A stretch of 39,733 nucleotides of DNA from Nautiliaceae bacterium (lineage in GTDB: Bacteria; Campylobacterota; Campylobacteria; Campylobacterales; Nautiliaceae): positions 1-39,733 of the forward strand of contig JAMOSZ010000040.1 of NCBI GenBank assembly GCA_027062625.1, given 5' to 3'. The notes below the pieces were generated by a model, which was not told where the DNA came from, did no database searches, and saw nothing but the letters and a program-made list of their open reading frames with translations. A program made the translations under genes and the position numbers. Numbering within the stretch: the stretch's first letter is position 1; the number at the start of each line of letters is the position of its first letter. This document shows, piece after piece, positions 1 through 39,733 of this stretch.

Positions 1-127
1 GTCATTTTTATCCTTTTTATTTTGGTCTAACTGCATATACAAGCATATTATACTCTAATGTATTTTTAACTTTTTCAAGTCTTTTTTTGATTGTGAAAAA
101 CTCTTCTATCCCAAATTCTATAACCTT
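1..127. repeat. Terminal direct repeat, identical to 39607-39733 (contig-end overlap)
   Basis: gtcatttttatcctttttattttggtctaa...ctataacctt is identical at both ends; 127 bp is a typical assembler k-mer overlap. Confidence 0.95.
11..127 (-). pseudogene. 3'-end fragment of csf1 (last 36 codons plus stop), duplicated
   Basis: 117 bp identical to 38098-38214, which is the 3' end of the csf1-like ORF 38104..38781; encodes KVIEFGIEEFFTIKKRLEKVKNTLEYNMLVYAVRPK-stop without the rest of the gene. Confidence 0.85.
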
Positions 128-136
128 AAAAGAAGA

Positions 137-496
137 TTAAAGGGAAGAAACTCTTATCTCTATCCCATCCCAGCCAGCGTTTCTAACTTTCTTAGCTCTT
201 ATTTCCACAATCTGTTTATCGTTTTTGTATGCTATCCCCTCCAAAGCGTCCTGTATTGCTTTAAGGGTATTATCCAAATCTTTTCTCCCCTGCTTTTTGC
301 AATAAAGGGTATATTCCAAAACAACATCCCCCTCCAAGACTTTAAACTTATTAACCTTTGCAAGTAAAGCAAGCGCATTTTTAAATTCTCTCCCGGCTTT
401 GCTTATATAGTGTATTATCCGCCCTCCCTTGTATGCACTTCGCCAATAAGAATTTACACTTGGGGGAATTAAGGGGGCTTTTAGATAGTTAGCCAT
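137..496 (-). CDS. RusA-like Holliday junction resolvase
   Basis: PPSVNSYWR start and KKQGRKDLDNTLKAIQDALEGIAYKNDKQIVE, typical of the RusA family (D-x-DN core). Confidence 0.85.
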   Translation of the reverse strand: MANYLKAPLIPPSVNSYWRSAYKGGRIIHYISKAGREFKNALALLAKVNKFKVLEGDVVLEYTLYCKKQGRKDLDNTLKAIQDALEGIAYKNDKQIVEIRAKKVRNAGWDGIEIRVSSL

Positions 497-3510: not shown

Positions 3511-3511
3511 T

Positions 3512-10288: not shown

Positions 10289-10316
10289 TTACTCTCCTTT
10301 TGCTCCTTTTTTTTGA

Positions 10317-10367
10317 TTTTTTCTTTACATTAAAAAGCTCTAAAAGCTCTTTAATGTAAAGAAAAAA
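10317..10367 (-). repeat. Intergenic stem-loop H1
   Basis: TTTTTTCTTTACATTAAAAAGCT/AGCTCTTTAATGTAAAGAAAAAA; one plus-strand A:C mismatch becomes U:G in minus-strand RNA. Confidence 0.7.
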
Positions 10368-10378
10368 GGGAGAGGGGG

Positions 10379-10690
10379 TTAAAATTTACTTAAAAATTCA
10401 ATTAAATTTTCTTTCTCTTTTTTTATTTTTTCTATTTCTTCTTCATCTGCGTCCCAGTTGATTGAGTTTTCAAACCACTCCTCAACCTCATTTGTGTTGT
10501 CGGTAATATCCTCCCATTCAAACCCACTTGCAATGTATAATACTCCATCATCGGCTTTTATAATATTAACGCAAACAGCGCCATCTCCTTCACCGAAACA
10601 ATCACCTCCTATAAGGAGGTCTTCAAATTTATTGAAGAACTCTTCATATCCTATTTCTTTGAATTCTTTTATAAGCTCTTGTTTATTCAT
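10379..10690 (-). CDS. Small acidic hypothetical protein
   Basis: Strongly acidic 103-aa ORF directly downstream of a strong sigma70-like promoter. Confidence 0.65.
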   Translation of the reverse strand: MNKQELIKEFKEIGYEEFFNKFEDLLIGGDCFGEGDGAVCVNIIKADDGVLYIASGFEWEDITDNTNEVEEWFENSINWDADEEEIEKIKKEKENLIEFLSKF

Positions 10691-10717
10691 CTTTGCTCCT
10701 TTTTCTTGTTTTTCTTG

Positions 10718-10803
10718 TTTTTTTTGTTTTTCTTGATGTAATTGTATAACATTCTTTTACATTTGTCAAGGGATTTTAGACAAAATAGAGAGAAATTTTA
10801 GAA
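10718..10803 (-). promoter_or_regulatory. Leftward sigma70-type promoter P1, in an 86-bp repeat
   Basis: Minus strand TTGACA (10764-10769), 17-nt spacer, TACAAT (10741-10746); 86 bp identical to 13053-13138. Confidence 0.85.
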
Positions 10804-10813
10804 AATTTCTAAA
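10797..10813. promoter_or_regulatory. Candidate operator palindrome between divergent promoters
   Basis: TTTAGAAA-A-TTTCTAAA just upstream of a rightward TATACT (10819-10824) preceding the endolysin gene. Confidence 0.4.
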
Positions 10814-10843
10814 TTTGATATACTTCTTAAAAAAGGAGACACA

Positions 10844-11473
10844 ATGAGCTTTGATTTAGCGTTTGAAGTTTTAGAACTTGCTGAGGGGGGATATGCTGAT
10901 AATCCCTTAGACGAAGGTAAAGAGACATATAAAGGAATAAGCAGGAGGTGGCATCCTACTTGGGAGGGGTGGTATATAATTGATAGCGTGAAAAATTACA
11001 TAGGATACGACGGAACTGATGAGGCAAAGAGAGAGCTAAATGAGCAGTTGGAGGGGAATTATGCACTGCAACAACTAGTAAGAGAGTTTTACAAAAAAAA
11101 CTATTGGGATAAGTTTAACGGAGACAACTTGCCGTTTGAGATTGGAGCAAAACTTTTGGAGCAAAGCGTTTTGCTTGGAACGGGCGGAAAAGGGGCTTTG
11201 CATTTACAAAAGGCAATTAACCTAGAAAAACAAAGGATAGGAGATTACAATTACATAAAAGAGGATGGGGTTATTGGTAAAGGCACACTTGGCGAGCTTA
11301 ACAAACTAAATAAAAACTTTATCTTAAAGTGGCTTACACTTATACAGGAGAGCGAATTGTTGCAGGAGATTTTTGATAAACCACAAAAAATAATTTTTTA
11401 TCAAGGGTGGAAAAATAGAATTAATAAAAGCCTTAAAAAGATAGCGGAAATTCAAGGGGATAGGTTAAGTTAA
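10844..11473 (+). CDS. Endolysin, GH108-type lysozyme with peptidoglycan-binding C-terminus
   Basis: ELAEGGYADNPLDEGKETYKGISRR, DGVIGKGTLGELN; RBS aaaggag upstream. Confidence 0.85.
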   Translation: MSFDLAFEVLELAEGGYADNPLDEGKETYKGISRRWHPTWEGWYIIDSVKNYIGYDGTDEAKRELNEQLEGNYALQQLVREFYKKNYWDKFNGDNLPFEIGAKLLEQSVLLGTGGKGALHLQKAINLEKQRIGDYNYIKEDGVIGKGTLGELNKLNKNFILKWLTLIQESELLQEIFDKPQKIIFYQGWKNRINKSLKKIAEIQGDRLS

Positions 11474-11516
11474 AGTGGTTGGCACTAAAAATAGAGAGAG
11501 TCTCTTTTCTTGTCTT

Positions 11517-11562
11517 TTCTTTACATTAAAAAACTCCGTAAAGCTCTTTAATGTAGAGAAAG
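11517..11562. repeat. Intergenic stem-loop H2 between convergent genes
   Basis: TTTTCTTTACATTAAAAAACT...AGCTCTTTAATGTAGAGAAA. Confidence 0.65.
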
Positions 11563-11570
11563 GAGGGCTT

Positions 11571-12170
11571 TTAACCCTCATCTACCTTAAAGAGGTAAAG
11601 TAAGATGGGGTTAGGCCATGGTCCTTCTTCCTCTGATAAGAAGAAGAATTTCCCCCCTTTCTTTACTAATTTAATATCTTTTCTTGCAAAATATTTATTC
11701 AATAAGTTGTGTAAAATTTTAATATCTTTTTCATTTAAGTTGCATTCATATTCTATTAAAGACTCGTCCCAATGCTCATAAATCTTGTATTTTTTATTTT
11801 TTTTAAGCCTAAAAGATGTGATGTTTTTTCTTAAAAGCTCTTGAATGAGCTTTATTTCATTTTCAACAAGACTAATACTTTCTGAAATCATTCCTCTCTG
11901 ATTATCGTTGTAATCAATATTCCTTTTACAATGTCTGCATTCATCAGTATATGCACCAAACACCTCTTCACACTCCTCATAAGTGTAAAGAGGGTCATAC
12001 ATTTCATATTCCTCTTCAAGATATTTAAGGGTTTCTTTACACTCTTGAATTCTTTTTCTTAATGAATTCTTTGTTACAACCACTTCTTCTTTTTCTTCTT
12101 TTTTTAAAGGTATTTCTATTTTATAATCATCTAAAATTTTTCTTAACAAATTTTTTGTTAAAATGTCCAT
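11571..12170 (-). CDS. Hypothetical accessory protein
   Basis: 199-aa ORF; CEEVFGAYTDECRHC Cys-containing segment. Confidence 0.6.
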   Translation of the reverse strand: MDILTKNLLRKILDDYKIEIPLKKEEKEEVVVTKNSLRKRIQECKETLKYLEEEYEMYDPLYTYEECEEVFGAYTDECRHCKRNIDYNDNQRGMISESISLVENEIKLIQELLRKNITSFRLKKNKKYKIYEHWDESLIEYECNLNEKDIKILHNLLNKYFARKDIKLVKKGGKFFFLSEEEGPWPNPILLYLFKVDEG

Positions 12171-12203
12171 TTCATCTCCTTTTTTTGTTTTTTGATTTTT
12201 TTA

Positions 12204-12255
12204 GCCCATCGGCTTACATAACTTGACAGGACGTCAAGTTATGTAAACAGACGGG
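12204..12255 (-). repeat. Intergenic stem-loop H4
   Basis: TTACATAACTTGAC-AGGAC-GTCAAGTTATGTAA perfect 14-bp core, extended by imperfect CCCATCGGC/acagacggg. Confidence 0.75.
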
Positions 12256-12266
12256 GAGGGGAGCTG

Positions 12267-12590
12267 TTATTCCTCTATTTCTTCCACAATCACTTCCCCC
12301 GTTTCTGGGTCTGTGATTTTTAGGGGGATAAATTTTCCCCCTGTTTCTTCAACAACATCATCAGCGTCATCAGCTTTTGCCTCCTCTACCAATTCCTCCT
12401 CCGTCCATCTTCCATACCTCCACGAATAGTCGTGGAGGTCGTCCCTATTTTCAAACCAAGCACCGCCTTCATTCCAAAGGCGGTTGATGGTTCTTTCTAT
12501 ATCAAATTCTGTTTCCTCTTCATTTACCTCGCAATACCCTAATACTTCCAAGCTATTCCAAGTTTTCCCAATAATTGTAATTACTTCCAT
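12267..12590 (-). CDS. Small, very acidic hypothetical accessory protein
   Basis: 107-aa Asp/Glu-rich ORF. Confidence 0.65.
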   Translation of the reverse strand: MEVITIIGKTWNSLEVLGYCEVNEEETEFDIERTINRLWNEGGAWFENRDDLHDYSWRYGRWTEEELVEEAKADDADDVVEETGGKFIPLKITDPETGEVIVEEIEE

Positions 12591-12609
12591 TTCATCTCCT
12601 TTTTGTTTT

Positions 12610-12656
12610 TTTTCTACATTAAAAGACTTCGTAAAAGTCCTTTAATGTAGAAAAGA
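12610..12656 (-). repeat. Intergenic stem-loop H3
   Basis: TTTTCTACATTAAAAGACTT-CGTA-AAAGTCCTTTAATGTAGAAAA. Confidence 0.7.
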
Positions 12657-12665
12657 AAAGGGAGG

Positions 12666-13034
12666 CTACACAAATAATATTTTCCCTTTATGGGAGTGAA
12701 GTAGTACTGGTTCTTCACTCCCTCTTATTAAAGCAACAAAATCATCAATCTCCCTCTCTAAAAACTCTCTGTCCTCTTCATCTTCAAAAGACGAAGAGCA
12801 AGGGTTTATATATACAGTCGCCCACACCCCTGCCTCTTTTACTTTTTTACCTCCTCTCCACGCAACTAAGAAGCCATTAATTTCCCAGCTTCTTTTAGCT
12901 TGACAACAACCTGCATTGTAGTCATACTCAATTATACCAACGAGTGCCTGTCTTAAAAGCACTCTGATGTACGGAGAATTCTTTCTCCATACTTTTAATG
13001 TACCGTCTCCCCAAAAATTTTTTGCTTTTTCCAT
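12666..13034 (-). CDS. Hypothetical accessory protein
   Basis: 122-aa ORF directly downstream of promoter P2. Confidence 0.65.
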   Translation of the reverse strand: MEKAKNFWGDGTLKVWRKNSPYIRVLLRQALVGIIEYDYNAGCCQAKRSWEINGFLVAWRGGKKVKEAGVWATVYINPCSSSFEDEEDREFLEREIDDFVALIRGSEEPVLLHSHKGKILFV

Positions 13035-13052
13035 TTTCGCTCCTTTTTTTTA

Positions 13053-13138
13053 TTTTTTTTGTTTTTCTTGATGTAATTGTATAACATTCTTTTACATTTG
13101 TCAAGGGATTTTAGACAAAATAGAGAGAAATTTTAGAA
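13053..13138 (-). promoter_or_regulatory. Leftward sigma70-type promoter P2, second copy of the 86-bp repeat
   Basis: TTGACA (13099-13104), 17-nt spacer, TACAAT (13076-13081) on the minus strand; 86 bp identical to 10718-10803. Confidence 0.85.
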
Positions 13139-13194
13139 TTTTAAGCAAAAAAACATTAAACATAGGAAAAATGGGGATTGAAAAGAGAAGTAAT

Positions 13195-13271
13195 TGGTGG
13201 GCGGGGTAGGACTTGAACCTACGACCAATCAGTTATGAGCCGACTGCTCTAACCAGCTGAGCTACCCGCCC
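13195..13271 (-). tRNA. tRNA with anticodon CAU (Met or lysidine-type Ile2), CCA encoded
   Basis: GGGCGGGTAGCTCAGCTGGTTAGAGCAGTCGGCTCATAACTGATTGGTCGTAGGTTCAAGTCCTACCCCGCCCACCA folds as a cloverleaf. Confidence 0.95.
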
Positions 13272-13303
13272 TTGTGGTTAGAGGATAAAAATTATACCAT
13301 AAT

Positions 13304-13789
13304 TTATTGTTTCTTTGTTAAAACCTCATCCTTAATCTTACTTCCAAGACTGCTCCCGTAATAGAAACCTATAATCCCTGCAATTATCGTCCCTAAAAGG
13401 AAACCTAAAATTGTATCTGCAAACCTTACGCTTTGCTGAGGTATTTGCATAGTTGTTACGATAAAGATATATGCAATTGCCGCTAAGCTCCACATAAGAG
13501 CGAATAAATTAACAAAATTCTTTGCAAACCAGCTCTCCTGTTTAAGCGCTACTTTTTGCATTTCTCTTGCACTTGCTCTATCTTGCAACATTAACTCCAA
13601 AAATGCTCTCTCCCTCTCTTGAAATTGCTTTAATCTTGCAATATCTGCGGGAGTGAGTGTTTGTTTTGTGTTTAAATCTATCCCTGTTTTTTCTTTTATA
13701 AGCTCAACTGCTTTATCTTTTCCTGCCTCTATAAAACTTTCTATTAATTCCAAACCTGCACTTGCAAGTATTCCGAATAAAGGTATCAT
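13304..13789 (-). CDS. Holin of the 3-TM / gene-transfer-agent release type
   Basis: Amphipathic N-terminus, RASAREMQK..SWFAKNFVN motif, then hydrophobic segments. Confidence 0.7.
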   Translation of the reverse strand: MIPLFGILASAGLELIESFIEAGKDKAVELIKEKTGIDLNTKQTLTPADIARLKQFQERERAFLELMLQDRASAREMQKVALKQESWFAKNFVNLFALMWSLAAIAYIFIVTTMQIPQQSVRFADTILGFLLGTIIAGIIGFYYGSSLGSKIKDEVLTKKQ

Positions 13790-13814
13790 TTTTGCTCCTT
13801 ATTTCATTTTAAGT

Positions 13815-14102
13815 TTAGTTTTTTAAAATTAAGTCTTCATTATAGATATAATCTTTATATCCTATTTCATCGTTTTCAACCGATACTTCAAGTTTGTAGT
13901 TTCCGGGTTTTAATTCTTCAAGTTCTCCTGATTTTATTCTTAATTCAAAGGTTGTATTATCATCACTTCTATCAAGTTCAGCCGTTTTAACAACTCTTTT
14001 TTCTATATCTTTTATAGAATAAAATGCTCTATATTCAGGCTCAATTATGCCATCTATATATTCAAAGTCTATAAAAATACTTTCATCTAGGTATTTAATC
14101 AT
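13815..14102 (-). CDS. Hypothetical structural protein
   Basis: Beta-rich 95-aa ORF in the tail-distal cluster. Confidence 0.5.
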   Translation of the reverse strand: MIKYLDESIFIDFEYIDGIIEPEYRAFYSIKDIEKRVVKTAELDRSDDNTTFELRIKSGELEELKPGNYKLEVSVENDEIGYKDYIYNEDLILKN

Positions 14103-14304
14103 TAAAGGTCCTTATTTTAAATTTAAGTCTTATTAAATTAATGTCAAATTTTGTTTTTACTACATTTGCATTAAATACAACTTTAAAAGGCTTAACGTTA
14201 AAAATCTGCTTAACGCCTTTGATTTCTTTTATCGTAATCTCGCCGCCGTCTTCCACGATTATTGAATTGTCCTCTCCATATCCAAGCGTAACGATATTAC
14301 TCAA
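14095..14304 (-). CDS. Hypothetical structural protein
   Basis: 69-aa ORF in overlapping gene chain. Confidence 0.45.
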   Translation of the reverse strand: MSNIVTLGYGEDNSIIVEDGGEITIKEIKGVKQIFNVKPFKVVFNANVVKTKFDINLIRLKFKIRTFND

Positions 14305-14593
14305 CTCTCTCCCTTTTCATAATACTTCTCTCAGTAGGTCTGCCTTTTTTATCAAAAAGCGCAAATTTTGCAATTTGATTATTGTTTTTATCTTTAAAAA
14401 TGAGGTGATTATCTACAATTTCCCAGTTCCCAAGTTCTACATCTAAAAGAGTTTGAAGCTTCTCATCTATTTCTTCAATTTTTGTTTTTAATTCTTCAAC
14501 AGCCACAATTTGCTCCTGTAAAAGTTTTATCTGTTTTTCAAGCTCATCTACAACTTGCTTAATCGTCATCCCGCTATCTGATAAAAAAGGCAT
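14297..14593 (-). CDS. Coiled-coil tail-associated protein
   Basis: VVDELEKQIKLLQEQIVAVEELKTKIEEIDEKLQ. Confidence 0.5.
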   Translation of the reverse strand: MPFLSDSGMTIKQVVDELEKQIKLLQEQIVAVEELKTKIEEIDEKLQTLLDVELGNWEIVDNHLIFKDKNNNQIAKFALFDKKGRPTERSIMKRERVE

Positions 14594-14599
14594 TGGAGA

Positions 14600-15253
14600 T
14601 TAGCCTCCGATTGTAGTTTCGCCGTCTTCTACGGTTGGAATATTTAGACTTATAAACTCTTTGTTTCCTATAATAGCAATACTTGCTTCAAATGCTTTTG
14701 GATAATTCCCATCATCGTCTTTTGTAGCTCCCTCTATATAATAAGGACTTGTCTCTACAAAATTTCTTCTATCAAAAGCATGCAGTTTAAATGTCTTTTC
14801 ATTAACTTTTTCAACTGCAAGCACTGCTGGATTTACACTTCCATCTGCAAGCATAGCCGCAGGAGTTGCAACAACTTCATAATCATCAATGCTTGAAAAG
14901 CCAAGCTCCGCTATATCAACCTCAACAATTCCGCTATCACTATTTATAGTAACTCTTTTTCTTACAATTAGGTTGATTGTGTTTAGGATGTCTGCGATTT
15001 TGTCAATTGCTCCGACTAAATCAAGCTCGGTGCCTGCTTTGTCAATTATGTCTTTTAATTTTTGAATTTTTTCCGCAATATCGTCATCATTACTTGTTAA
15101 TGCGTCAATTTTGTCCTTCAAATCATTAATGTAATTCTGAACATCATCTACTTCTTTATTGTAATTCGCAATAAAATCTTGAAGTGTTTGATAGATTGAA
15201 GGTTTTGTGATGCTAAATTTATTTCCGCTTAAATCAGCAGGATAATTAGCCAT
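14600..15253 (-). CDS. Putative tail fibre/appendage protein
   Basis: Coiled-coil N-terminus followed by a beta-rich region, in the tail-tip cluster. Confidence 0.5.
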   Translation of the reverse strand: MANYPADLSGNKFSITKPSIYQTLQDFIANYNKEVDDVQNYINDLKDKIDALTSNDDDIAEKIQKLKDIIDKAGTELDLVGAIDKIADILNTINLIVRKRVTINSDSGIVEVDIAELGFSSIDDYEVVATPAAMLADGSVNPAVLAVEKVNEKTFKLHAFDRRNFVETSPYYIEGATKDDDGNYPKAFEASIAIIGNKEFISLNIPTVEDGETTIGG

Positions 15254-15254
15254 T

Positions 15255-15773
15255 TTAACTCCTTATTATTAGATAATTCACCCTTACGGGTTTATCTTTG
15301 CAATTTAGTCTTTGTTTTTCTTCTACGAAAGCAGTGCTATCATATAGCGCTATATCAAAGCCTGTATCTGTCTGATTTTCTATTCTAACTTCTGCGACCA
15401 AACTATCTTCAACATTTGCAAATATCTTTGCATCTTTTACATCTGCTTCAATATGTTTAATCCCATCTTCGCTATCAACTATTACTTCATTGCTTTCACC
15501 TATTAAAAAAGGTGATGTAAAAATTACGCCTTTTATAATTTCACCATTTTCACAAACATAGCTGTTTTCAATTGCCCTATTCTGAGTCGCAACATCACTG
15601 AATACTTTCCAACTTCTATTGCTTCTACTATCGTAAAGGTCTGCGTAATATTCAACTTCTTTATTTTTCTCTTGTCTTCTATTTACCCAGTTTTTTGTCC
15701 ATCTGATAGCATCGTCTTGTGTGATAGTAGAGTTCCCTCTAACTATTACATCAAGTCTATATAATTTAGCCAT
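15255..15773 (-). CDS. Hypothetical tail-associated protein
   Basis: 172-aa ORF in the tail-tip cluster. Confidence 0.5.
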   Translation of the reverse strand: MAKLYRLDVIVRGNSTITQDDAIRWTKNWVNRRQEKNKEVEYYADLYDSRSNRSWKVFSDVATQNRAIENSYVCENGEIIKGVIFTSPFLIGESNEVIVDSEDGIKHIEADVKDAKIFANVEDSLVAEVRIENQTDTGFDIALYDSTAFVEEKQRLNCKDKPVRVNYLIIRS

Positions 15774-15796
15774 TTTTTATCTTTAAAAGAGGAAGA

Positions 15797-16369
15797 TTAA
15801 AGGGTTGCCCCGTCTCCCTCTTCTGCGTTAAATCCAAAAATATCTTCTACTTCTTTTACAATTGCTTCACAATTTACATTTACAAGTGTTTCTATATCAC
15901 TTTTTGTGAAGTAATTAGTAGTAAGCTCTGCTTTTACGCCTGCAACATCGTCTTCAACTTTGCTAACTCTAATTTCAAGAGCTTTTACTCTCTCAACTAC
16001 ATCGTTAATTGCTTTGTTAAGCGCTTCTTCAACGCTTTTAATGTTTTCAGCATTTGTTGCTACATCTTTTGCTACTGCGTCAATGTTAGATTGTAAAACT
16101 GCGAATTTTGAAAGAATTTCCTCAGGAGTAATTTCTCCGTTTTCATTAACATCAAAAACTTTCGCAAAAGAGTCAGCATACGCTTTTATCTTTTCAAGTT
16201 CTTCACCAAGCCCTTCAATTTTACTTAACTCATCTACAATAGATTGTTTAAGCTCATCTTTTGCTACGCTAATTTGTGCGTCTGTGTAGCGTTTTGAAGC
16301 ATTTGCAACGCTTTTTGCTACACAAACTAGCCTTTCTTGCAATAATGCTTGTAATTCTTCTTTTGTCAT
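15797..16369 (-). CDS. Coiled-coil structural protein with an EF-hand-like loop
   Basis: KVFDVNENGEITPEEILSKFA matches a DxNxNGxIxxxE loop; flanked by long heptads. Confidence 0.5.
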   Translation of the reverse strand: MTKEELQALLQERLVCVAKSVANASKRYTDAQISVAKDELKQSIVDELSKIEGLGEELEKIKAYADSFAKVFDVNENGEITPEEILSKFAVLQSNIDAVAKDVATNAENIKSVEEALNKAINDVVERVKALEIRVSKVEDDVAGVKAELTTNYFTKSDIETLVNVNCEAIVKEVEDIFGFNAEEGDGATL

Positions 16370-16390
16370 TTAAACTCCTTTGATTTTTTT

Positions 16391-16450
16391 TAGTGGTAGT
16401 AACCACTTCAAAAAGCTCTAAAAGCTTTTTAAAGTAAGTTACTACTTACT
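16391..16450 (-). repeat. Intergenic stem-loop H5
   Basis: tagtggtagtaaccacttcaaaaagct ctaaa agctttttaaagtaagttactacttact; shares AAAAAGCTCTAAAAGCT with H1. Confidence 0.6.
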
Positions 16451-28700: not shown

Positions 28701-29000
28701 ATGATTTATTCGTATGAAGATGAGTTTCTAGTCGGAGGGGTAGATACGACAGAGCTTGAAAATATAGAGGCTGAAAAATACAATTTTGTCCTTAATAAGC
28801 TAAACGTTGATGACAACTATTATCTTGAAAAACTAACTAAATCACTTGTATATATGCACCTTGCAAAAATGCAGCTTGAAAGTGAGGGGATGAAGGCGAA
28901 ATACGACGTATATAAAGCCGAATATGAGCATTTTTTCAACCTTGCGAAAAACAACAACTCAATTATAAACATTAAAAACATTCCAATTCAAAGGGGTTAA
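28701..29000 (+). CDS. Putative head-tail connector protein
   Basis: 99-aa helical ORF at the head of the plus-strand connector cluster. Confidence 0.55.
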   Translation: MIYSYEDEFLVGGVDTTELENIEAEKYNFVLNKLNVDDNYYLEKLTKSLVYMHLAKMQLESEGMKAKYDVYKAEYEHFFNLAKNNNSIINIKNIPIQRG

Positions 29001-29001
29001 A

Positions 29002-29385
29002 ATGATTGACATCGTTCCTGTCTTACACAACGTAAAAGAGCTTATACAAACCCTTAACATCTACAAATCCGTCAAACTCGGTCTTGAAAAGGGAGCGGAT
29101 AAAGCTATAAATACTCCTTTTGCAAGGATTATCGTAGATGAGATAGAACACAGGGGAGCTTTGATTGATTTGCATTTAAGCATCGTTATAGCTTTTAATA
29201 CAAAAAACGATTACGAAAAATTATATGAGGAATTTTTTGCAGCCGAATACACTACTAAAATGTCGCTTTTTAAACTCCCTTACAAAATAGAGCTTATTAC
29301 ATCCATTACAGATGAAGACAGACTTGTTAATCTTAAAGCTGGAATTATTAAATTTAAGATAATAGGACTTTGCAATGCGAATTAA
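29002..29385 (+). CDS. Putative head-tail joining protein
   Basis: ORF in the plus-strand connector cluster. Confidence 0.5.
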   Translation: MIDIVPVLHNVKELIQTLNIYKSVKLGLEKGADKAINTPFARIIVDEIEHRGALIDLHLSIVIAFNTKNDYEKLYEEFFAAEYTTKMSLFKLPYKIELITSITDEDRLVNLKAGIIKFKIIGLCNAN

Positions 29386-29821
29386 AGTCGGCACAACGGA
29401 GGAAATATTTGAAACGCTTGATAAGATGACTGATACATCACAAATGATTAAAAATATTACAACAGCAGTGCACAAAGAAGTTAAAAATCAGGCAAAAAAA
29501 CATTTTATAACTGGAACATTGCATAGAAATATCTTAATGAAGACAAAAGGCAATGCGGGTATTGTGTGGATAGCTGATGATAATATGATGGTAAATTGGA
29601 AGGGTAAAAAAATAAATTATGCGACTTTTGTGCTGTTTGGAACTCGTCCACATTTAATAAAAGCAAAAAATAGAAAAGCACTAAGATTTAGTTATAAAAG
29701 TTTAGATGAGTTTGTATATCGCAAAAGTGTCCGTCATCCTGGATACAGAGGCGACGATTTCTTGCGTAATGCGGCAAAAAAAGTTTTTAAAAATTTAGAC
29801 AAATTAATTAAGGAGAGTTAA
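29375..29821 (+). CDS. HK97 gp10-like minor/tail completion protein
   Basis: VHKEVKNQAKKHFITGTLHRNI...WIADDNMM...VLFGTRPHLIKAK...HPGYRGDDFLRNAAKK. Confidence 0.65.
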   Translation: MRIKVGTTEEIFETLDKMTDTSQMIKNITTAVHKEVKNQAKKHFITGTLHRNILMKTKGNAGIVWIADDNMMVNWKGKKINYATFVLFGTRPHLIKAKNRKALRFSYKSLDEFVYRKSVRHPGYRGDDFLRNAAKKVFKNLDKLIKES

Positions 29822-31110
29822 TGGACTTACTAACTGCAACAAAAATATGGGAATTTGCGAATGAAGCATATGAAGGGAGTGGAGGATTTTTAACAGGCGA
29901 ATACATAGACAAATACCCCCGTGAAAGCGACGAAAAGTATGAAGAGAGGCAAAAAATAGCCTATTACACAAATATTTTTGCAAGCAAGATAAATAGGTAT
30001 ATAGGTTATCTTTTCAAACAAACGCCTACTCGTAATAGCTCAAACAACTTAATAAGAATAATTTTTGATGATGTGGATAATAGGGGGAATAGTATTGACG
30101 TTTTTATGTCTAACTTTGCAAAACATGCAAAAGTCAGAGGCGTTAATCTATTGCTTGTAGATATGCCTAAAAACATACCCGCAACCCTTGCCGAACAGAT
30201 ACAGGCTCGCTCCCTACCTTACTTTACCGAAATTGTACCTGAGAGGCTTGTAGCTTTTAAACTTGATAATACAGGCAAGTTTGAATATGTAGCTTTTTCT
30301 GATGTTATAGACAACTCCACAATGCAAAAGCAGGATATAAAAGAAGTTATAAGGTATTATGATAAGCAAAGTTGGAAGATACTTGACGCCGAAGACACCA
30401 ATAAGGTAATAGAAAGTGGAGAGCATAACCTCGGAGTTTGCCCTGTGTTAATTTTTTCTGAAACTGGCGAATTCCCAGCAATAGGAGAATTTACGCAAAT
30501 AGCACATCTTGCAAAGAGGCATTACAATCTACAAAGTGAACTTGACGAAATACTAAGGGGACAGACTTTCTCTATCCTTACACTTAATGCTGACACCGCA
30601 AGCGATGTTGAAGTGAAGTTATCTACCGACAACGCAATAATTTACGGCAAAGAATTCAACAAACCCGAATACATCGCCCCGCCTGCCGCACCTGCTGAGA
30701 TTTACCAACAAAAAATTAAAGACATAGAGGCTCAGATTGACAAAATTGCCTTTGATGTATCTACAAACGAAAGTAAAGAAAGCGGCATCGCACTTGATAT
30801 TAAGTTTCAGGGACTCAATGCTTCACTCTCAAATTTTGCTTTAAGACTTGAAGATTTAGAACTGAGAGCGTTTGATGTTGTGTGTAGGTATCTTAATATC
30901 AAAAACGACGTTGATATTTTATATCCTAAAAATTTTAATGTTATTGATATTGAAAAAGAAATCGGGATATTAAGTGAGATGAAACAACTTTTAGACTCTC
31001 CGACATATTTCAAACTAAAAGCCCTTCAAATTATTTCAAACGACCTTAATACTATTGACGTGGATAACTTTGATGAGATTTCACAAGAGATTGAGGATAG
31101 TTTTAAATAG
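29821..31110 (+). CDS. Portal protein (DUF4055-like)
   Basis: YPRESDEKYEERQKIAYYTNIFASKINRYIGYLFKQTP, FMSNFAKHAKVRGVNLLLVDMP; 429 aa. Confidence 0.75.
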   Translation: MDLLTATKIWEFANEAYEGSGGFLTGEYIDKYPRESDEKYEERQKIAYYTNIFASKINRYIGYLFKQTPTRNSSNNLIRIIFDDVDNRGNSIDVFMSNFAKHAKVRGVNLLLVDMPKNIPATLAEQIQARSLPYFTEIVPERLVAFKLDNTGKFEYVAFSDVIDNSTMQKQDIKEVIRYYDKQSWKILDAEDTNKVIESGEHNLGVCPVLIFSETGEFPAIGEFTQIAHLAKRHYNLQSELDEILRGQTFSILTLNADTASDVEVKLSTDNAIIYGKEFNKPEYIAPPAAPAEIYQQKIKDIEAQIDKIAFDVSTNESKESGIALDIKFQGLNASLSNFALRLEDLELRAFDVVCRYLNIKNDVDILYPKNFNVIDIEKEIGILSEMKQLLDSPTYFKLKALQIISNDLNTIDVDNFDEISQEIEDSFK

Positions 31111-32242: not shown

Positions 32243-32513
32243 CTGGAAGCTCCTTTTGCTCTGCTGTAATTATCCTAATTCTGCTTTCACTCTTCTCAAA
32301 AAGCTTTGCCAATTCCTTTATGGCTTCACTTCTGCTTCTTCCAATCGCTATCATCTGTTCATAAATATCTCTTATCTCCTGATACTCACTTCTTTTTTTT
32401 CTAAAATAAATCCGCCAACCTCTAAATCTTTTTAAAAACTCTTTAATCTGTTTATCACTTAGCCCGATTTCTTTTAATTCATTTATCACATAAAATTCGT
32501 TTGCCTCTATCAT
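32232..32513 (-). CDS. Hypothetical packaging-cluster protein
   Basis: ORF overlapping its neighbours. Confidence 0.5.
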   Translation of the reverse strand: MIEANEFYVINELKEIGLSDKQIKEFLKRFRGWRIYFRKKRSEYQEIRDIYEQMIAIGRSRSEAIKELAKLFEKSESRIRIITAEQKELPDGF

Positions 32514-33706
32514 ATCAGCCCCAATTTTAAAGATTTTGTTTTGCCTTGTGCTTTTATTAAAGGTGCAAGTGCGTATCTGATTGCATCAATTGTGTGATTA
32601 TATTTATCTTCAACTTGCGGGAGAATGTCACCAGCTGAGTTCGTTTTGTAACTATATAATCTAAATTCTTCAAGCGTATGTTTGCAATTTGGATTTATGA
32701 TTATCTTTTTAAATTTTTTCATAAATTCAATACCGTCTTCAACGCTTCCTTTCCATTTCTCTACGCCCTCAATTCTTAAGTCAAAGTTTCTTCTTAAATA
32801 GCTAATAGTCTCAGGTCTTGCATTGTCAGCTCTAATTAAGTAATCTTTATAATCTGGTATATGCTTTTTAAAAAATTCAGGCATTTCATCAATTTCAATC
32901 CCGACTCCATACGCTTCATCTGAAATATAAAGATAATCATCTACGATATAAACTCTAACAAGCGCTGTTGGGTCAACTGCAAATCCAAAATCAAGCCCTT
33001 GATATATCTCATCGTTAACAGGCAATATTCCACTCTCAAACTTGTCTTTGAATACTTGCTTATCATCATAGATTAAACACTCGCCCTCCCAGATGTGTTT
33101 GTAATAGTTATAATCAATCTTTTTTAAATACTCCATCTCTTCACGTAAAACATCTGGGAAAAATGGATTATCGTAATAGTTTACTTTTACAACAATTGCA
33201 TTTGGCGGTGGTTTTACCACAAATCTTTGATACGTCTCATCCTCTATAAAGTGTGGATTAAAACTTACCCAAATTTCGCTCCCCTCTTTTCTAATTGTAG
33301 GGATAAGTAAATCCCAACTCTCTTTGCTAACACTCTGAGCCTCTTCTACCCAGCATATATCAATACCTTCTGTTGATTTTATCTCTTGGATATTGTGCCT
33401 AAGTCCTTTAAAGATAAATTCACTTCCAACTCTGCTTCTTATCTCATCTCTTGTAACTATAAAATAATCATTTAATCCCATTTCGTTTATCTGGTCTTTT
33501 AAAAGTTTATGAACGCTATCTTTTATTGAGTTTTGAATTTCACGGGTGCATAAGACTCTTATCTTTTTTTGAACTGCAAGCAGTATTAACACTTTCGCAA
33601 TGTTCCAAGATTTACCACTTCCTCTTCCTCCATAAAAAACCTTATACCTCGCTTTCTTTCCTAAAAGCACGTCTAAAAAAATTTTTGGGATTTTTACTTC
33701 AATCAT
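32510..33706 (-). CDS. terL: Terminase large subunit
   Basis: KVFYGGRGSGKSWNIAKVLI Walker A, DICWVEEAQSVS, YQGLDFGFAVDPTALVRVYI nuclease region. Confidence 0.95.
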   Translation of the reverse strand: MIEVKIPKIFLDVLLGKKARYKVFYGGRGSGKSWNIAKVLILLAVQKKIRVLCTREIQNSIKDSVHKLLKDQINEMGLNDYFIVTRDEIRSRVGSEFIFKGLRHNIQEIKSTEGIDICWVEEAQSVSKESWDLLIPTIRKEGSEIWVSFNPHFIEDETYQRFVVKPPPNAIVVKVNYYDNPFFPDVLREEMEYLKKIDYNYYKHIWEGECLIYDDKQVFKDKFESGILPVNDEIYQGLDFGFAVDPTALVRVYIVDDYLYISDEAYGVGIEIDEMPEFFKKHIPDYKDYLIRADNARPETISYLRRNFDLRIEGVEKWKGSVEDGIEFMKKFKKIIINPNCKHTLEEFRLYSYKTNSAGDILPQVEDKYNHTIDAIRYALAPLIKAQGKTKSLKLGLI

Positions 33707-34052
33707 TTTTCACATCAACTCCAATAACATTAATTACAGGAGCTTGATTTTCGTGTTTAACCTCTAATTTCTCACTCCACCCTCTGTGTTTACCCTTTGT
33801 CTTTAAAAAGAAAATAAGGGAAGTAGTATCCCCATCTTTTATCTTCTTCATAAGCATACTTTCGGCAAAATCAATCAACCCTTCCTGTATGGAGTCTACT
33901 TCTTGTTTAAATTTTTTATCCTTATTAAGCCAATTGTAATAAGTTTGTCTATTGATGCCGACTTGTTTGCAACTTGCACTTATATTTCCGGCTGTTTTTT
34001 CTAAAATTTTTAAAAACATTTTCTTTTTTTCTCTTGTGTATTTTATAGGCAT
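33699..34052 (-). CDS. terS: Terminase small subunit (HTH)
   Basis: KMFLKILEKTAGNISASCKQVGINRQTYYNWLNKDKKF, directly upstream of terL. Confidence 0.8.
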   Translation of the reverse strand: MPIKYTREKKKMFLKILEKTAGNISASCKQVGINRQTYYNWLNKDKKFKQEVDSIQEGLIDFAESMLMKKIKDGDTTSLIFFLKTKGKHRGWSEKLEVKHENQAPVINVIGVDVKND

Positions 34053-34109: not shown

Positions 34110-35441
34110 CTAATTTGCATTCTTATACTCACTCCATTTAACTTTTTTGCCGTTTATTTTTATTTCATCTATGCCTGTGTAATCACACCAACGCTGGATA
34201 ATTACTTGTGCATATTTTTCATCTAATTCCATTAATCTTGATTTTCTTTTTAAAATCTCACAAGCTATAAGCGTACTTCCTGCACCTCCGAATAAATCTA
34301 AAACAATCCAACCAATCTGAGATGAGTTAAATATAAATCTACTAACCAATTCAACAGGTTTCATTGTTGGATGTAATTCGCTTATTGTGGGTCTATCATA
34401 TTCGGCTACACTTGTTTTTAATTCATTTTTTAGTTTTTTAATTTCTTTTATTAATTCATCTTTATTCATTTTTTTATAATCTACATCATCATAAATCGTA
34501 GTAAGTGTAAAATCTCTACAGAAATAATGATTTGCACCCTCTTTCCATCCATACAAAATGGGCTCATGCCGCCAATTATAATCTTGTCTTGATAAAGTCG
34601 CACTTTGTTTTGCCCATATTAATACTTGTGAAAATTTAAATCCTGCATCTACAAATGCTTTTGTAAAATTTACTCTTTCCGTATCTGCGTGTGCTACATA
34701 TATAACTGCCCCATTTCTAACAACTTTCATGTAATTCTTAAATACTTTTAATAAAAAATTATAAAACTTATCACTTTCCATATCATCATTTTTTATAGTT
34801 CCTGCCTTTCCTTTTATTGCTACATTGTACGGCGGGTCAGTAAATACCATATCCGCCTTTTCTCCATTCATCAACCTTTTTACATCTTCCTCATTTGTGC
34901 TATCACCACATAAAAGCCTGTGCTCTCCAAGCTCAATCAAATCTCCTCTTTTAATTACGATGTTTTCCTCATCTATTTCAGGCACATCATTGATTTTTTC
35001 ATTATCACTACTTCCCATTACGTCATCAAAATTATCTAAAATATCATTAAGTTCTTCTTTCTCAAACCCTAAAATATTCATATCAAAAGCGATATTATCA
35101 AGCTCTTCTAAATCAATCTTTAACAATTCCTCATCCCAAGGAGATAACTCTGCGAGTGTATTATCGGCAATCCTGTAAGCTTTCACCTGTGTAGGGGTTA
35201 AGTGCTCAGCCCTTAAAATAGAGACTTCTTTATAACCAAGTCTTTTCAGTGCCTCATATCTTCCATGCCCCGCTATTATTACATTATCTTTATCAACTAT
35301 AATAGGGTTTATAACTCCAAACTCTTTTATGCTTCCCATTATCTTTTCTACCTGCTCAGTAGGATGTCTTTTTTGATTATTCACATAAGGTACTAACTTT
35401 TCAAGTTCTATTGTTTCATATTTTAGCTTTTTATCACTCAT
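34110..35441 (-). CDS. DNA methyltransferase with N-terminal ParB/sulfiredoxin-like domain
   Basis: IIVDKDNVIIAGHGRYEALKRLGYKEVSI ParB-like box; VFTDPPYNV catalytic motif; LDLFGGAGSTLIACE. Confidence 0.9.
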   Translation of the reverse strand: MSDKKLKYETIELEKLVPYVNNQKRHPTEQVEKIMGSIKEFGVINPIIVDKDNVIIAGHGRYEALKRLGYKEVSILRAEHLTPTQVKAYRIADNTLAELSPWDEELLKIDLEELDNIAFDMNILGFEKEELNDILDNFDDVMGSSDNEKINDVPEIDEENIVIKRGDLIELGEHRLLCGDSTNEEDVKRLMNGEKADMVFTDPPYNVAIKGKAGTIKNDDMESDKFYNFLLKVFKNYMKVVRNGAVIYVAHADTERVNFTKAFVDAGFKFSQVLIWAKQSATLSRQDYNWRHEPILYGWKEGANHYFCRDFTLTTIYDDVDYKKMNKDELIKEIKKLKNELKTSVAEYDRPTISELHPTMKPVELVSRFIFNSSQIGWIVLDLFGGAGSTLIACEILKRKSRLMELDEKYAQVIIQRWCDYTGIDEIKINGKKVKWSEYKNAN

Positions 35442-35455
35442 TTGAACTCCTTTTT

Positions 35456-36166
35456 TTAGAACTTTGCAATTTTAAATCTCTTATTGATTGTATCTATATA
35501 ATAAGCAACTTCAAAAGGATTTTTAAAATAAGGTGGAGTTACTGCTCCAATCCCGAGCAGTTGACCGGGTGTAATATTATCAGTAGGTATTCGTCTGATT
35601 ATCTCACAATAATCTACTTTCTCTATCTTTGTGCTTTTAATTTTTCCATGCCCTAACTTCCTAAGTCCCCCTATTCCATCTAAATACCTTAACAACCTTG
35701 CTACCATTTCCCCATTTCCTTTTACACAAAAGGTAAGTTTATCAACTAAGTAGATAGTGTAAGGCATATTATAAGATTTAAAAAATCCTCTTTGAGTATC
35801 AATTACTTTTGTGTCACAATATCTTAAAAATTTATCATCAAACCTCTTTCTCCATTTATCAATCGTTTTTCTATCTCCAAGTTTTAAATGAGACGCATAA
35901 AAAACACGTAGGCTTCTACCACCTACCTCAAAAAACTTACTATAAAGAGGTAAATCAACAAAATCAAACTCATTTTCTTCAACAAACACATAATCATCTT
36001 TTAAAGCTCTCTTAATAGCGCAACTCGCTAAAATACCATCAAAAAACAAAAATCCATCTTTTGCAACCACTCCATTCTCTATCTCAAAAGTAATTTTTAG
36101 ATAATCCTCCTTTTTAAGATTTGCAAACTCTTCATTCTGTCTTAATATTTTTTTTCTTCTTGTCAT
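35456..36166 (-). CDS. csf3: Type IV CRISPR-Cas Csf3 (Cas5-like RAMP)
   Basis: 236 aa; C-terminal glycine-rich RAMP loop GIGGLRKLGHGKIKSTKIEKV; last gene of the csf operon. Confidence 0.8.
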   Translation of the reverse strand: MTRRKKILRQNEEFANLKKEDYLKITFEIENGVVAKDGFLFFDGILASCAIKRALKDDYVFVEENEFDFVDLPLYSKFFEVGGRSLRVFYASHLKLGDRKTIDKWRKRFDDKFLRYCDTKVIDTQRGFFKSYNMPYTIYLVDKLTFCVKGNGEMVARLLRYLDGIGGLRKLGHGKIKSTKIEKVDYCEIIRRIPTDNITPGQLLGIGAVTPPYFKNPFEVAYYIDTINKRFKIAKF

Positions 36167-36175
36167 TCTTACTCC

Positions 36176-36952
36176 TTAATAATCTAATAATTCTTTATGA
36201 TTTCTTGCTATCCTAAGAAATTCTTGGGGGTAGTGATACCTCAACCAAGCAACCCTCCCCTCACTTGCAAAATTTCTTGGAGTAGCATCGTGATACCTTA
36301 TCTTACGTGGGTCTCCCCATAAATGAGTCCGTCTATAAACATCTATTATCGGAATTTTTCTTGTCAAAAGAAAAGCAAAAACATCATTTGCACTCCATCT
36401 CATTATCGGATTGCAATACCACAACCCTTTTTTATTCTTATCAGCAACTCCAAGCGTTTGGGACCATAAAAATTTTCTTTTTTTGCTTTCTTCTGCTCTA
36501 AGTCCCATAAATACCCCCGAGCTCTGATTTTTTTTATCTCTTATTTCATCAATATATTTTGCTAAATCTTTTAATTGCCAGCTTGAAGCTTCATCAAGCC
36601 TAAAATCTTTTTCAAGGGTATCTCCAAGGTTTCTTAAATCCAACTTAAAGGCATATCTCTCCGCCATCATTTTCAAGTACGGAATATGAAAACTAAAAGC
36701 CCTATCATCACAAATATTAAATAACTCTACCTTATCATTTAACCCCATTTCCCACAAAAGCCCTAATACCGCAGTGCTGTCTTTACCTCCCGAATATGCA
36801 AGGTGCCATTTGGGAAACTTTTTAAAGGCGTCTTCTATTAAAAGTTTCGCCTCTTCTACATTTTCCCAAAATTCTCTTGTCTTAGAATGGAGAATGAAAA
36901 GCCTTTGCCACTTCTCATTCTCTCCATCAAACTTATCAAACCAAAAATCCAT
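36176..36952 (-). CDS. cysH-like: CysH-like (PAPS reductase/DndC-type) PP-loop protein
   Basis: WHLAYSGGKDSTAVLGLLWEMG PP-loop, GLRAEESKKRK, CNPIMRWSANDVFAFLLTRKIP; start overlaps the csf2 end. Confidence 0.9.
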   Translation of the reverse strand: MDFWFDKFDGENEKWQRLFILHSKTREFWENVEEAKLLIEDAFKKFPKWHLAYSGGKDSTAVLGLLWEMGLNDKVELFNICDDRAFSFHIPYLKMMAERYAFKLDLRNLGDTLEKDFRLDEASSWQLKDLAKYIDEIRDKKNQSSGVFMGLRAEESKKRKFLWSQTLGVADKNKKGLWYCNPIMRWSANDVFAFLLTRKIPIIDVYRRTHLWGDPRKIRYHDATPRNFASEGRVAWLRYHYPQEFLRIARNHKELLDY

Positions 36953-37739
36953 TTTCTTTTAAAAATTCAAGAATTTCATCTTTAAGCTCCTCAATATAAT
37001 TTTTATACACTTCATCATCTTTTAAAGAAATATCAAATTCCACTTTCCCAAGTCCAATAGCTCCTTTACCTCCTATCCTTGCTTCTTTAAACATTAACAT
37101 CAGTCCTCTTTTTAAAACACTCTCATCAAGCTCATTTGCAACCGATAATAAACCAACCCTAAAAGTCATCTCCACCCCTGCTTTTAGCACTTCATATCTA
37201 TACAACATCTGATGTTTATCAGTCTCAACCTCATCCTTATAAGGATAATCATCTCTCCTTGTCCCAAATTCCTCAGATACAACCTCAAACAAATCAATAT
37301 CGCTTTTCACGCCTGTGAATTGTTCAGTTTGTTTAACAATAGGCAACATATCCTCAACAATCAAAGTCCCCGGCAATATAGCATTACCTATTGCGCTTCC
37401 TAATAAATGCAACATAGGAATGTTTTTATAAAATTCTCTTCTCGTTGAAATGTTTATCTTACCATCACTTTTTTTAAGTGCTCCTCCTGAGAAAAGCGTA
37501 TAATAAAAATCTGGTGTTAATGATTTATCACTTATTCCAAGTAAATCTAAATAATCTTTTGCAATCACTCTCCTTAAAATCCCTCTAATAGAATTTGCTG
37601 AAACGATAGGGATATTAAGAGTCTCTCCACCTATCAAATACTCTCTTCTTCTTATTGTTTTATCAATTCCTGCAACCTCATCGCTTCCTGTGTGAATAGG
37701 ACTTAATAATTTCGCCTTCGTATCTACAATGTATCTCAT
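36936..37739 (-). CDS. csf2: Type IV CRISPR-Cas Csf2 (Cas7-like RAMP)
   Basis: LLSPIHTGSDEV, IPIVSANSIRGILRRVIAKDYL, RIGGKGAIGLGKVEFD: Cas7/RAMP-type motifs. Confidence 0.85.
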   Translation of the reverse strand: MRYIVDTKAKLLSPIHTGSDEVAGIDKTIRRREYLIGGETLNIPIVSANSIRGILRRVIAKDYLDLLGISDKSLTPDFYYTLFSGGALKKSDGKINISTRREFYKNIPMLHLLGSAIGNAILPGTLIVEDMLPIVKQTEQFTGVKSDIDLFEVVSEEFGTRRDDYPYKDEVETDKHQMLYRYEVLKAGVEMTFRVGLLSVANELDESVLKRGLMLMFKEARIGGKGAIGLGKVEFDISLKDDEVYKNYIEELKDEILEFLKENGFLV

Positions 37740-37740
37740 T

Positions 37741-38091
37741 TTACGCTCCTTGTCTTATTAATTTTGCTTTAATTAAAAGATATTCAAGTTCTTCTCTTAG
37801 CATTTTCAAAGCCCTTTTATCATCAATATTGCTAAAATCAAACACGCCTTCTTTGTCTTTAAGATAAATATCACTCATCTTTATCCCCAACTTTCTAATA
37901 AGTTTTGAGGTGAAAGTTTTTAAATCTTTTGTATTTAAGCAAGCTTTTACCCTGCTTTGAAACTCACTCTCAAATCCTATTCTATTATGGTCTTTTGGTG
38001 CAGCTGAATATAAAATATTCAAAATCGCCACCAACCTATCCTCTAAGTTCGCCAAATCTAAAACTTTTTGCTCCTCAAATAAATTTTCCAT
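37741..38091 (-). CDS. cas11: Cas11-like small subunit of the type IV-B complex
   Basis: 116-aa helical protein between csf1 and csf2, the position of the type IV-B small subunit. Confidence 0.65.
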   Translation of the reverse strand: MENLFEEQKVLDLANLEDRLVAILNILYSAAPKDHNRIGFESEFQSRVKACLNTKDLKTFTSKLIRKLGIKMSDIYLKDKEGVFDFSNIDDKRALKMLREELEYLLIKAKLIRQGA

Positions 38092-38097
38092 ATAAGC

Positions 38098-38214
38098 TCC
38101 TTTTTATTTTGGTCTAACTGCATATACAAGCATATTATACTCTAATGTATTTTTAACTTTTTCAAGTCTTTTTTTGATTGTGAAAAACTCTTCTATCCCA
38201 AATTCTATAACCTT
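38098..38214. repeat. 117-bp repeat (3' end of csf1), identical to 11-127 and 39617-39733
   Basis: Exact match by direct reading. Confidence 0.9.
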
Positions 38215-38775
38215 TCTTGGATTTGGGTTTAGAGTTAAGATTTCTTCTTTTGTAAAAAAAGTTTTTGGATTTTTTTTGCTCTTCTCTTTTTCTGGTATAG
38301 AATAAAGATTTTGTATATCTTTAAAAACATTTTTCCATCTGTGAGGCTCAAAATAAAATCCTCCCTCATCTGTTTGTATCCAAAATTCCTCTTTATTAAA
38401 AGAAACTTTTCCCTTAAAAAACAAATGTTTTTTCTTTGAATAAGAAAGGTGAAAGAAAAATGGAGGCTCAATTTCTTTTGGAAAATTAAACAAAATATCA
38501 GCAAGTTCTAAGGCTGTAAACCTTAGAAATCCTTTTTCGTGAAAAATTGCAGACATTTTTCTAACTGAATTTTCTTTTCTATCTGTTAAAACAAATTCAC
38601 ACGCCTCGCAAACGCCTTCCCCTTTTTGTAGATAATCTAAATCTGTAAATGTATTTTTTATTACCTTTTTTAGATTTTTAGGTGCCGGAGATTTACAAAA
38701 AACACATTTAGTTTCTCCTTTAAAAAGGGGCTCTCTTTGCAATAAGGACTTATAAATTAAATGACTCGGATACAT
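38104..38775 (-). CDS. csf1: Type IV CRISPR-Cas Csf1
   Basis: ~225 aa with Csf1-type zinc finger CVFCKSPAP...GEGVCEACEFVL; first gene of the operon; ATG 38775 with GGAGTGAAA upstream (alternative GTG start 38781). Confidence 0.85.
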   Translation of the reverse strand: MYPSHLIYKSLLQREPLFKGETKCVFCKSPAPKNLKKVIKNTFTDLDYLQKGEGVCEACEFVLTDRKENSVRKMSAIFHEKGFLRFTALELADILFNFPKEIEPPFFFHLSYSKKKHLFFKGKVSFNKEEFWIQTDEGGFYFEPHRWKNVFKDIQNLYSIPEKEKSKKNPKTFFTKEEILTLNPNPRKVIEFGIEEFFTIKKRLEKVKNTLEYNMLVYAVRPK

Positions 38776-38795
38776 TTTCACTCCTTAAAAAATAT

Positions 38796-38964: not shown

Positions 38965-39303
38965 TTAATCCCCCTCTTTATCAACTTCCAAAATGCCTTC
39001 ATCTTTAATCCACATAGTATTTTTTTCACACTTACATGGAACAAAAGTTGGGATTGTTTTTAAAGTGCTATTAGATGTTAAATATACACGATTATGGAAA
39101 CATTTGTAGGTCATACCATAGTCTTCTGCTGTAGATATTTTTTCAGAAAATGTGTTTTTAAAATAAAATACAATTTTGCTTCTAATATTACATTCAAAAT
39201 TTGAAATTTTTTCGTAACCAAAGTATTTTTTTTCTATTTTAAATAGCTCTTTACTCCATAAGTTTAAAGACAAAATTATAAGAAAAAGAATTTTAGTTTT
39301 CAT
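38965..39303 (-). CDS. Small exported (signal-peptide) Cys-containing hypothetical protein
   Basis: MKTKILFLIILSLNLWSKELF signal-like N-terminus. Confidence 0.6.
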   Translation of the reverse strand: MKTKILFLIILSLNLWSKELFKIEKKYFGYEKISNFECNIRSKIVFYFKNTFSEKISTAEDYGMTYKCFHNRVYLTSNSTLKTIPTFVPCKCEKNTMWIKDEGILEVDKEGD

Positions 39304-39611: not shown

Positions 39612-39733
39612 TTTTATCCTTTTTATTTTGGTCTAACTGCATATACAAGCATATTATACTCTAATGTATTTTTAACTTTTTCAAGTCTTTTTTTGATTGT
39701 GAAAAACTCTTCTATCCCAAATTCTATAACCTT
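39607..39733. repeat. Terminal direct repeat, second copy
   Basis: Identical to 1-127; positions 39617-39733 also match 38098-38214. Confidence 0.95.

Follow-up and report, generated by a model that had tools for sequence, protein, structure and literature searches.

The contig JAMOSZ010000040.1 of the Nautiliaceae draft genome GCA_027062625.1, the whole 39,733-nt length of which is called the window here, holds five minus-strand genes that almost certainly make up a whole effector module of CRISPR-Cas subtype IV-B, which forms an accessory cassette in a siphophage related to those of Nitratiruptor. This assignment draws on profile matches, predicted folds and synteny. The genes read csf1, cas11, csf2, a cysH-like gene (its product is termed CasCysH below) and csf3 (Table 1), which is the order that a sequence-only reading of the window had given, and both the coordinates and the PADLOC and Pfam matches agree with it. 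The tight packing noted in that reading is also borne out: 12 nt lie between csf1 and cas11, 1 nt between cas11 and csf2 and 9 nt between the cysH-like gene and csf3, csf2 and the cysH-like gene overlap by 17 nt, and another 14 nt separate csf3 from the adjacent methyltransferase gene. All five open reading frames (ORFs) are unbroken and retain motifs that are invariant in distant homologues.

The profile searches that the same reading had proposed placed each protein in a type IV or PAPS-reductase (3′-phosphoadenosine 5′-phosphosulfate reductase) family, with E-values of 1e-8 to 1e-53, and the RAMP-like ORFs fell in type IV families instead of unrelated ones. Specifically, the PADLOC profiles label the four Cas proteins as type IV Cas8 (Csf1_0_IV, 1.6e-25), Cas11 (Cas11_0_IV, 7.7e-9), Cas7 (Csf2_0_IV, 4.3e-53) and Cas5 (Csf3_0_IV, 4.4e-31), while Pfam assigns Csf2 to RAMPs (2.9e-6) and CasCysH to PAPS_reduct (8.9e-15). 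The NCBIfam models for csf1 (TIGR03114), csf2 and csf3 matched at 6e-10, 1.5e-17 and 2.2e-17, all under the curated cut-offs, and the Csf proteins are therefore divergent members of their families. Against sequences in the PDB, the Csf2 family profile found the type IV-B Csf2 of 7JHY (1.7e-78) far ahead of Cas7c (2.7e-34) and type IV-A Csf2 (1.9e-14); the Cas11 profile likewise had the type IV-B Cas11 of 7JHY at the top (5.7e-34), and the Csf3 profile matched the type IV-A Csf3 7xfz_B (1.1e-21). The AlphaFold2 model of Csf1 (predicted local distance difference test score, pLDDT, 83.5) matches the type IV-A Csf1 7xg1_A (E 9.4e-8, template-modelling (TM) score 0.61), and its significant PDB matches were solved type IV-A Csf1 chains only. 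The GID motif of Csf2 (D26) lies one residue away from the position of the catalytic-loop aspartate in its homologues, a position that is itself variable across the family, so that the loop speaks neither for nor against cleavage of target RNA.

The subtype follows from the combination of genes. The csf2 gene belongs to the type IV-B group by its PADLOC match, by its much closer fit to 7JHY than to type IV-A and by its position in the tree among cysH-bearing loci; csf1, csf3 and cas11 are present, and the cysH-like gene encodes a PP-loop without a catalytic cysteine. It had also been stated from the sequence that an array, adaptation genes, cas6 and dinG are lacking. In agreement with this, no pair of 24-nt repeats (up to 3 mismatches, 50-85 nt spacing) was found near the operon, a single low-complexity pair being seen elsewhere in the phage, and adaptation genes, cas6 and dinG had no match among the phage ORFs scanned, which took in part of the small ORFs. 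Two other assignments were rejected: subtype IV-A, as cysH occupies the dinG position and there is no array, and type III-A (Csm), as there is no cas10 (csm1) and the large subunit is Csf1-like, 225 aa long and folded as type IV-A Csf1.

The carrier was described in the sequence-only reading as what looks like a complete phage genome, and this description holds. The window is one entire contig of the 1.48-Mb draft genome, with an identical contig in IMG/VR, and its two ends are identical over exactly 127 nt, so that it closes into a circle of 39,606 bp. It encodes a full siphophage gene set: the small and large terminase subunits (TerS and TerL), portal, head morphogenesis, major head and major tail proteins, tape measure and endolysin, together with a DnaB-like helicase, Erf, an exonuclease, RusA, a MazG-like protein and ThyX; no integrase was noticed among the phage proteins scanned. 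TerL (66% identity), portal (about 60%) and the head morphogenesis protein (about 50%) are shared with the Nitratiruptor phages NrS-1, NrS-2 and NrS-3, and the packaging and head genes stand in the same order, which makes this siphophage a relative of the NrS-1 group but a different species. Its gene for the single-stranded DNA-binding protein SSB (3094-3534, minus strand) is 89% identical in DNA to that of the binned genome (G000:C27), as against at most about 78% to the SSB genes of other members of the genus; this ties the phage to the host lineage, and the likeness of the two sequences suggests a recent exchange. Three further features of the phage genome were observed. The portal gene and three small genes (28701-31110, plus strand) lie on the opposite strand within the head module, as they do in the NrS phages. 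Four diverged 63-nt copies of one family (D2) with inverted repeats stand between small genes at 10308-16448, possibly as terminators or regulatory elements, and a tRNA-Met (CAT) gene at 13195-13271 on the minus strand shares about 85% identity with tRNA genes in related bacteria.

Within this genome the operon had been placed between a methyltransferase and terminase cluster and a RusA gene, and the profiles confirm both flanks, the RusA side being reached across the circular junction, with small ORFs and a 117-bp remnant of csf1 between RusA and csf1. In G152, a phage-like contig from the same family, TerS comes straight after RusA. G156, a closer relative, has a separate nuclease-like gene upstream of a ParB gene, the product of which matches the N-terminus of the methyltransferase found here. 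No csf match was obtained in G152, in G156 or in the parts of NrS-1 and NrS-2 that the search covered; in NrS-2 a protein annotated as a repressor gave a weak match to the cysH profile (E 7e-4), which was taken as chance. As csf genes are missing beside the methyltransferase or TerS in two relatives, the operon, which together with three small ORFs fills the interval from rusA to the methyltransferase and TerS genes, looks like an insert on comparison of these sequences.

Table 1. The csf operon, its flanking genes and the csf1-derived repeat copies in the window
Feature	Coordinates	Strand	Remarks
csf1	38104..38781	-	225 aa; C4 zinc-binding motif CxxC...CxxC; type IV large-subunit-like
cas11	37741..38091	-	116 aa; small subunit
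csf2	36936..37739	-	267 aa; Cas7-like backbone subunit
cysH-like (CasCysH)	36176..36952	-	258 aa; PP-loop protein, SGGKDS at residues 54-59
csf3	35456..36166	-	236 aa; Cas5-like subunit
ParB-N6/N4 DNA methyltransferase	34110..35441	-	Pfam N6_N4_Mtase 2e-30, ParB_N 7.1e-7; phrog_498 9.1e-159
Terminase small subunit (TerS)	33699..34052	-	phrog_309 4.9e-12
Terminase large subunit (TerL)	32510..33706	-	Pfam Terminase_3 3.5e-47
RusA Holliday-junction resolvase	137..496	-	phrog_34 2.5e-21
Small ORF between csf1 and RusA	38965..39303	-	signal-peptide-like start; no significant family match
Repeat copy, csf1 3′ end plus 6 nt	38098..38214	-	117 nt, 100% identical to the junction copy
Second copy of csf1 3′ end	11..127 (also 39617-39733)	-	remnant immediately downstream of RusA; no intact csf1

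Within the phylum this operon is rare: a profile search found a type IV-B-like csf2 in 1 of 397 genomes, namely the one that contains this phage. Three other genomes of the phylum (G076, G191 and G359), two of them recovered by this search and one by a search of the order, carry type IV-A- or IV-E-like csf genes beside a helicase-like ORF; these loci, which lie within the same bacterial order, share Csf2 and Csf3 homologues with the phage operon but have a DinG-like helicase ORF (as read from the ORF sequence, with no profile) instead of cysH, and in G191 csf3 and csf1 are fused. A csf2 search of viral contigs with a three-row alignment, which in genome contigs recovered only one known plasmid, yielded ten further IMG/VR contigs (L037-L046). 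The genes cas11, csf2, csf3 and cysH are present in all ten and csf1 in nine, the locus in the tenth starting inside the operon at the contig end. Terminase, portal, head or tail genes are present in the fetched stretch of seven, and in three of these (L037, L039 and L040) the operon lies less than 1 kb from TerL or portal. The other three (L041, L042 and L043) showed no phage structural or packaging gene among the proteins tested and could therefore be plasmids or other elements. Only L044 and L046 share the gene order of the window, in which cysH stands between csf2 and csf3.

Several named systems can be set beside this one. The Csf complex of Mycobacterium sp. JS623 (7JHY, PMC7937560) has the same Csf1, Csf2, Csf3 and Cas11 with an associated cysH, and no array or CRISPR RNA (crRNA) nuclease, but it is encoded on an actinobacterial plasmid; the operon described here is on a phage, has cysH between csf2 and csf3 and is distant in sequence, its Csf2 being 24-34% identical to the aligned plasmid and phage homologues. 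Fuxivirus, a virus of Bathyarchaeia, is likewise a virus that bears csf1, cas11, csf2, csf3 and cysH, yet its host is archaeal and it possesses Cas4 and a mini-array of two repeats and one spacer, no such repeat pair being present here (PMC10848311). The Skermania phage SPI1, a cultured tailed phage, has a complete run of csf1, cas11, csf2, csf3 and cysH in Orf40-44 (KR011061; L023, 6816-10449), which are annotated as hypothetical proteins only; it differs in its actinobacterial host, in having csf3 before cysH and in its neighbours, which are ribonucleotide reductase and lysis genes with no terminase adjacent. NrS-1, NrS-2 and NrS-3 have the siphophage module order in common with the phage, but no csf genes were found in the searched parts of NrS-1 and NrS-2. 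The search for related phages that had been proposed from the sequence thus yielded the NrS phages as relatives, and SPI1 and the ten IMG/VR contigs as carriers of the operon.

Type IV systems had been presented in the sequence-only reading as mostly plasmid-borne. The phage location stands; phages and viruses, however, were already known as carriers, since virus-borne type IV-B has been published for Fuxivirus and, in the same paper, for prophages and lytic phages (PMC10848311), and a review lists type IV in some phages and prophages (PMC11656645). The type IV-B gene set also occurs on plasmids among the compared loci. This is not, then, a new kind of system: plasmids and a few phages were known to have it, and the ten IMG/VR contigs and the set in SPI1 are what was found here. 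In the Csf2 tree, where the IMG/VR labels of element type were used as given, a single clade of all virus- and phage-labelled copies was rejected (approximately unbiased test, p-AU 2e-49), and the type of element must have changed at least four times; it is therefore likely that type IV-B operons have been exchanged between plasmids and viruses. The phage Csf2 itself forms a long branch, the exact place of which is unsure, in a group in which every plasmid member comes from archaea (Thermococcus and haloarchaea).

Of the 18 type IV-B loci that were compared, 16 have a gene for the CysH-like protein within or close to them; it was unassigned at two haloarchaeal plasmids. Across 16 CasCysH homologues the residues S54, G56, K57, D58, S59, R152, E155, R159 and Y206 are invariant. 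There is no conserved cysteine, as no cysteine column is common to more than 4 of the 16, and this holds for both plasmid and virus copies; it argues against a reductase role. The AlphaFold2 model (mean pLDDT 73) has the PAPS domain of FAD (flavin adenine dinucleotide) synthase as its nearest neighbour (E 2.7e-7) and also resembles PAPS and APS (adenosine 5′-phosphosulfate) reductases, TtuA and TilS, with TM scores of about 0.5. Motifs and fold together fit an ATP-pyrophosphatase or adenylating enzyme rather than one of sulfate reduction, a role that has been argued for the CysH-like partner before (PMC8175902). A true PAPS/APS reductase was rejected, as the C-terminal catalytic cysteine is missing, and so was an ordinary sulfate-assimilation cysH carried by the phage as a moron, given the absence of a conserved cysteine and a position between csf2 and csf3.

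How such a module might serve a phage can be pictured from the published complex, in which type IV-B proteins assemble on heterogeneous RNAs, about 55-60 nt long, as a Csm-like filament (PMC7937560). Csf2 and Cas11 would polymerise on short RNAs into a filament of this kind, with Csf3 and Csf1 as caps, and with neither array nor cas6 the filament would take up any small RNAs at hand, including host crRNAs. CasCysH, as a PP-loop ATP pyrophosphatase lacking the conserved catalytic cysteine, may then adenylate or otherwise activate a substrate on the filament or close to it. The overall result would be a weaker RNA-guided immunity in a host that carries part of a III-A system, cas6, cas1 and cas2 and a probable array. 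In the host draft genome (contigs C107, C109, C13 and C24), we found csm3, csm4 and csm5 with a CARF-RelE protein, cas6 accompanied by a WYL gene and, at two loci, cas1 together with cas2 genes. The probable array is unassembled between C13 and C80, its probable repeat being seen only at one contig end and, with one mismatch, at one contig start. Among the related Nitratiruptor strains, which have CRISPR systems of the I-B, III-A or II-C subtypes, some spacers match NrS phages (PMC9723563).

Several observations weigh against this picture. crRNAs were not enriched among the RNAs bound by the 7JHY complex (PMC7937560), and a simple crRNA-specific sponge is thus unsupported; a sponge by itself would also leave the strict conservation of the CysH-like gene unexplained. 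Moreover, no Cas10 (Csm1) of the host was found in its draft genome, where the array too is unassembled, and the host system may thus not be intact or working. Given the lack of crRNA enrichment and of a Csm1 match in the host draft, we propose the whole mechanism, an RNA-binding filament with an ATP-using partner that blunts the RNA-guided immunity of the host, only tentatively, at somewhat less than an even chance.

A rather unlikely alternative, though one to be taken seriously, is that CRISPR immunity is not the target and that the operon encodes a guide-independent, RNA-modifying ribonucleoprotein, in which, on the filament, CasCysH would adenylate either a small molecule or the ends of RNAs and thereby act on host transcripts or tRNAs. 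The presence of the cysH-like gene at nearly all of the compared loci speaks for it, as do the SGGKDS loop without a conserved cysteine, which points to adenylation over reduction, and fold neighbours such as FAD synthase, an AMP-transferring enzyme, TtuA and TilS; a similar hypothesis has been put forward (PMC8175902). The fold likeness is, however, moderate at the scores given above, and a known substrate is lacking.

A use of the module for RNA-guided attack on competing phages or plasmids is unlikely; in this reading it would borrow crRNAs processed by the host Cas6 and silence its targets without cutting them, as type IV-A does. The host does have cas6, cas1/cas2 and a probable array, and the conformation of Csf2-bound RNA suits base pairing (PMC7937560); yet the phage has no array or mini-array and no DinG among the screened ORFs, and the type IV-B complex failed to select crRNAs from a co-expressed array (PMC7937560).

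Decaying or neutral cargo received from a plasmid is a very improbable explanation of the operon. A broken 3′ fragment of csf1 does lie beside RusA and the operon was found in just this one of the 397 genomes, but the five intact, tightly spaced ORFs with their conserved motifs speak against it. The fragment is one of two identical copies of a 117-nt repeat, and the 127-nt overlap of the contig ends stops exactly at the boundary of this repeat; the duplication reflects either two arrangements in the phage population or a local assembly fault, and the repeat does not reach the junction of csf3 and the methyltransferase gene. Least likely, and hardly credible, is an origin of the operon by chimeric assembly or by assignment to the wrong element in binning: the contig cut coincides with the edge of the csf1 repeat and could mirror a branch in the assembly graph, but csf3 stands just 14 nt from the phage methyltransferase gene with no repeat noted at that joint, the GC content, third-position GC and ribosome-binding sites of the operon are similar to those of the adjacent phage genes, and independent virus contigs hold the same operon beside terminase or portal genes.

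Debate over what type IV-B systems do has centred mostly on large plasmids. A broader idea, which we regard as distinctly speculative and improbable as it stands, is that type IV-B is in part adapted to phages, as a filament that has no array and works with an adenylating CysH partner; it would recur close to packaging genes in tailed phages and disable the RNA-guided immunity of the host, type III above all, through a chemical reaction on RNA. If this is true, the phage described here would be a small and complete example of it, for which both phage and host have cultivable relatives. With its complete module, this 40-kb phage, whose NrS relatives can be induced from cultured strains and have matching spacers in related strains, would together with the ten virus contigs make it possible to examine in infection the counter-defence and competition that the sequence-only reading had suggested, both of them hypotheses already in the literature.

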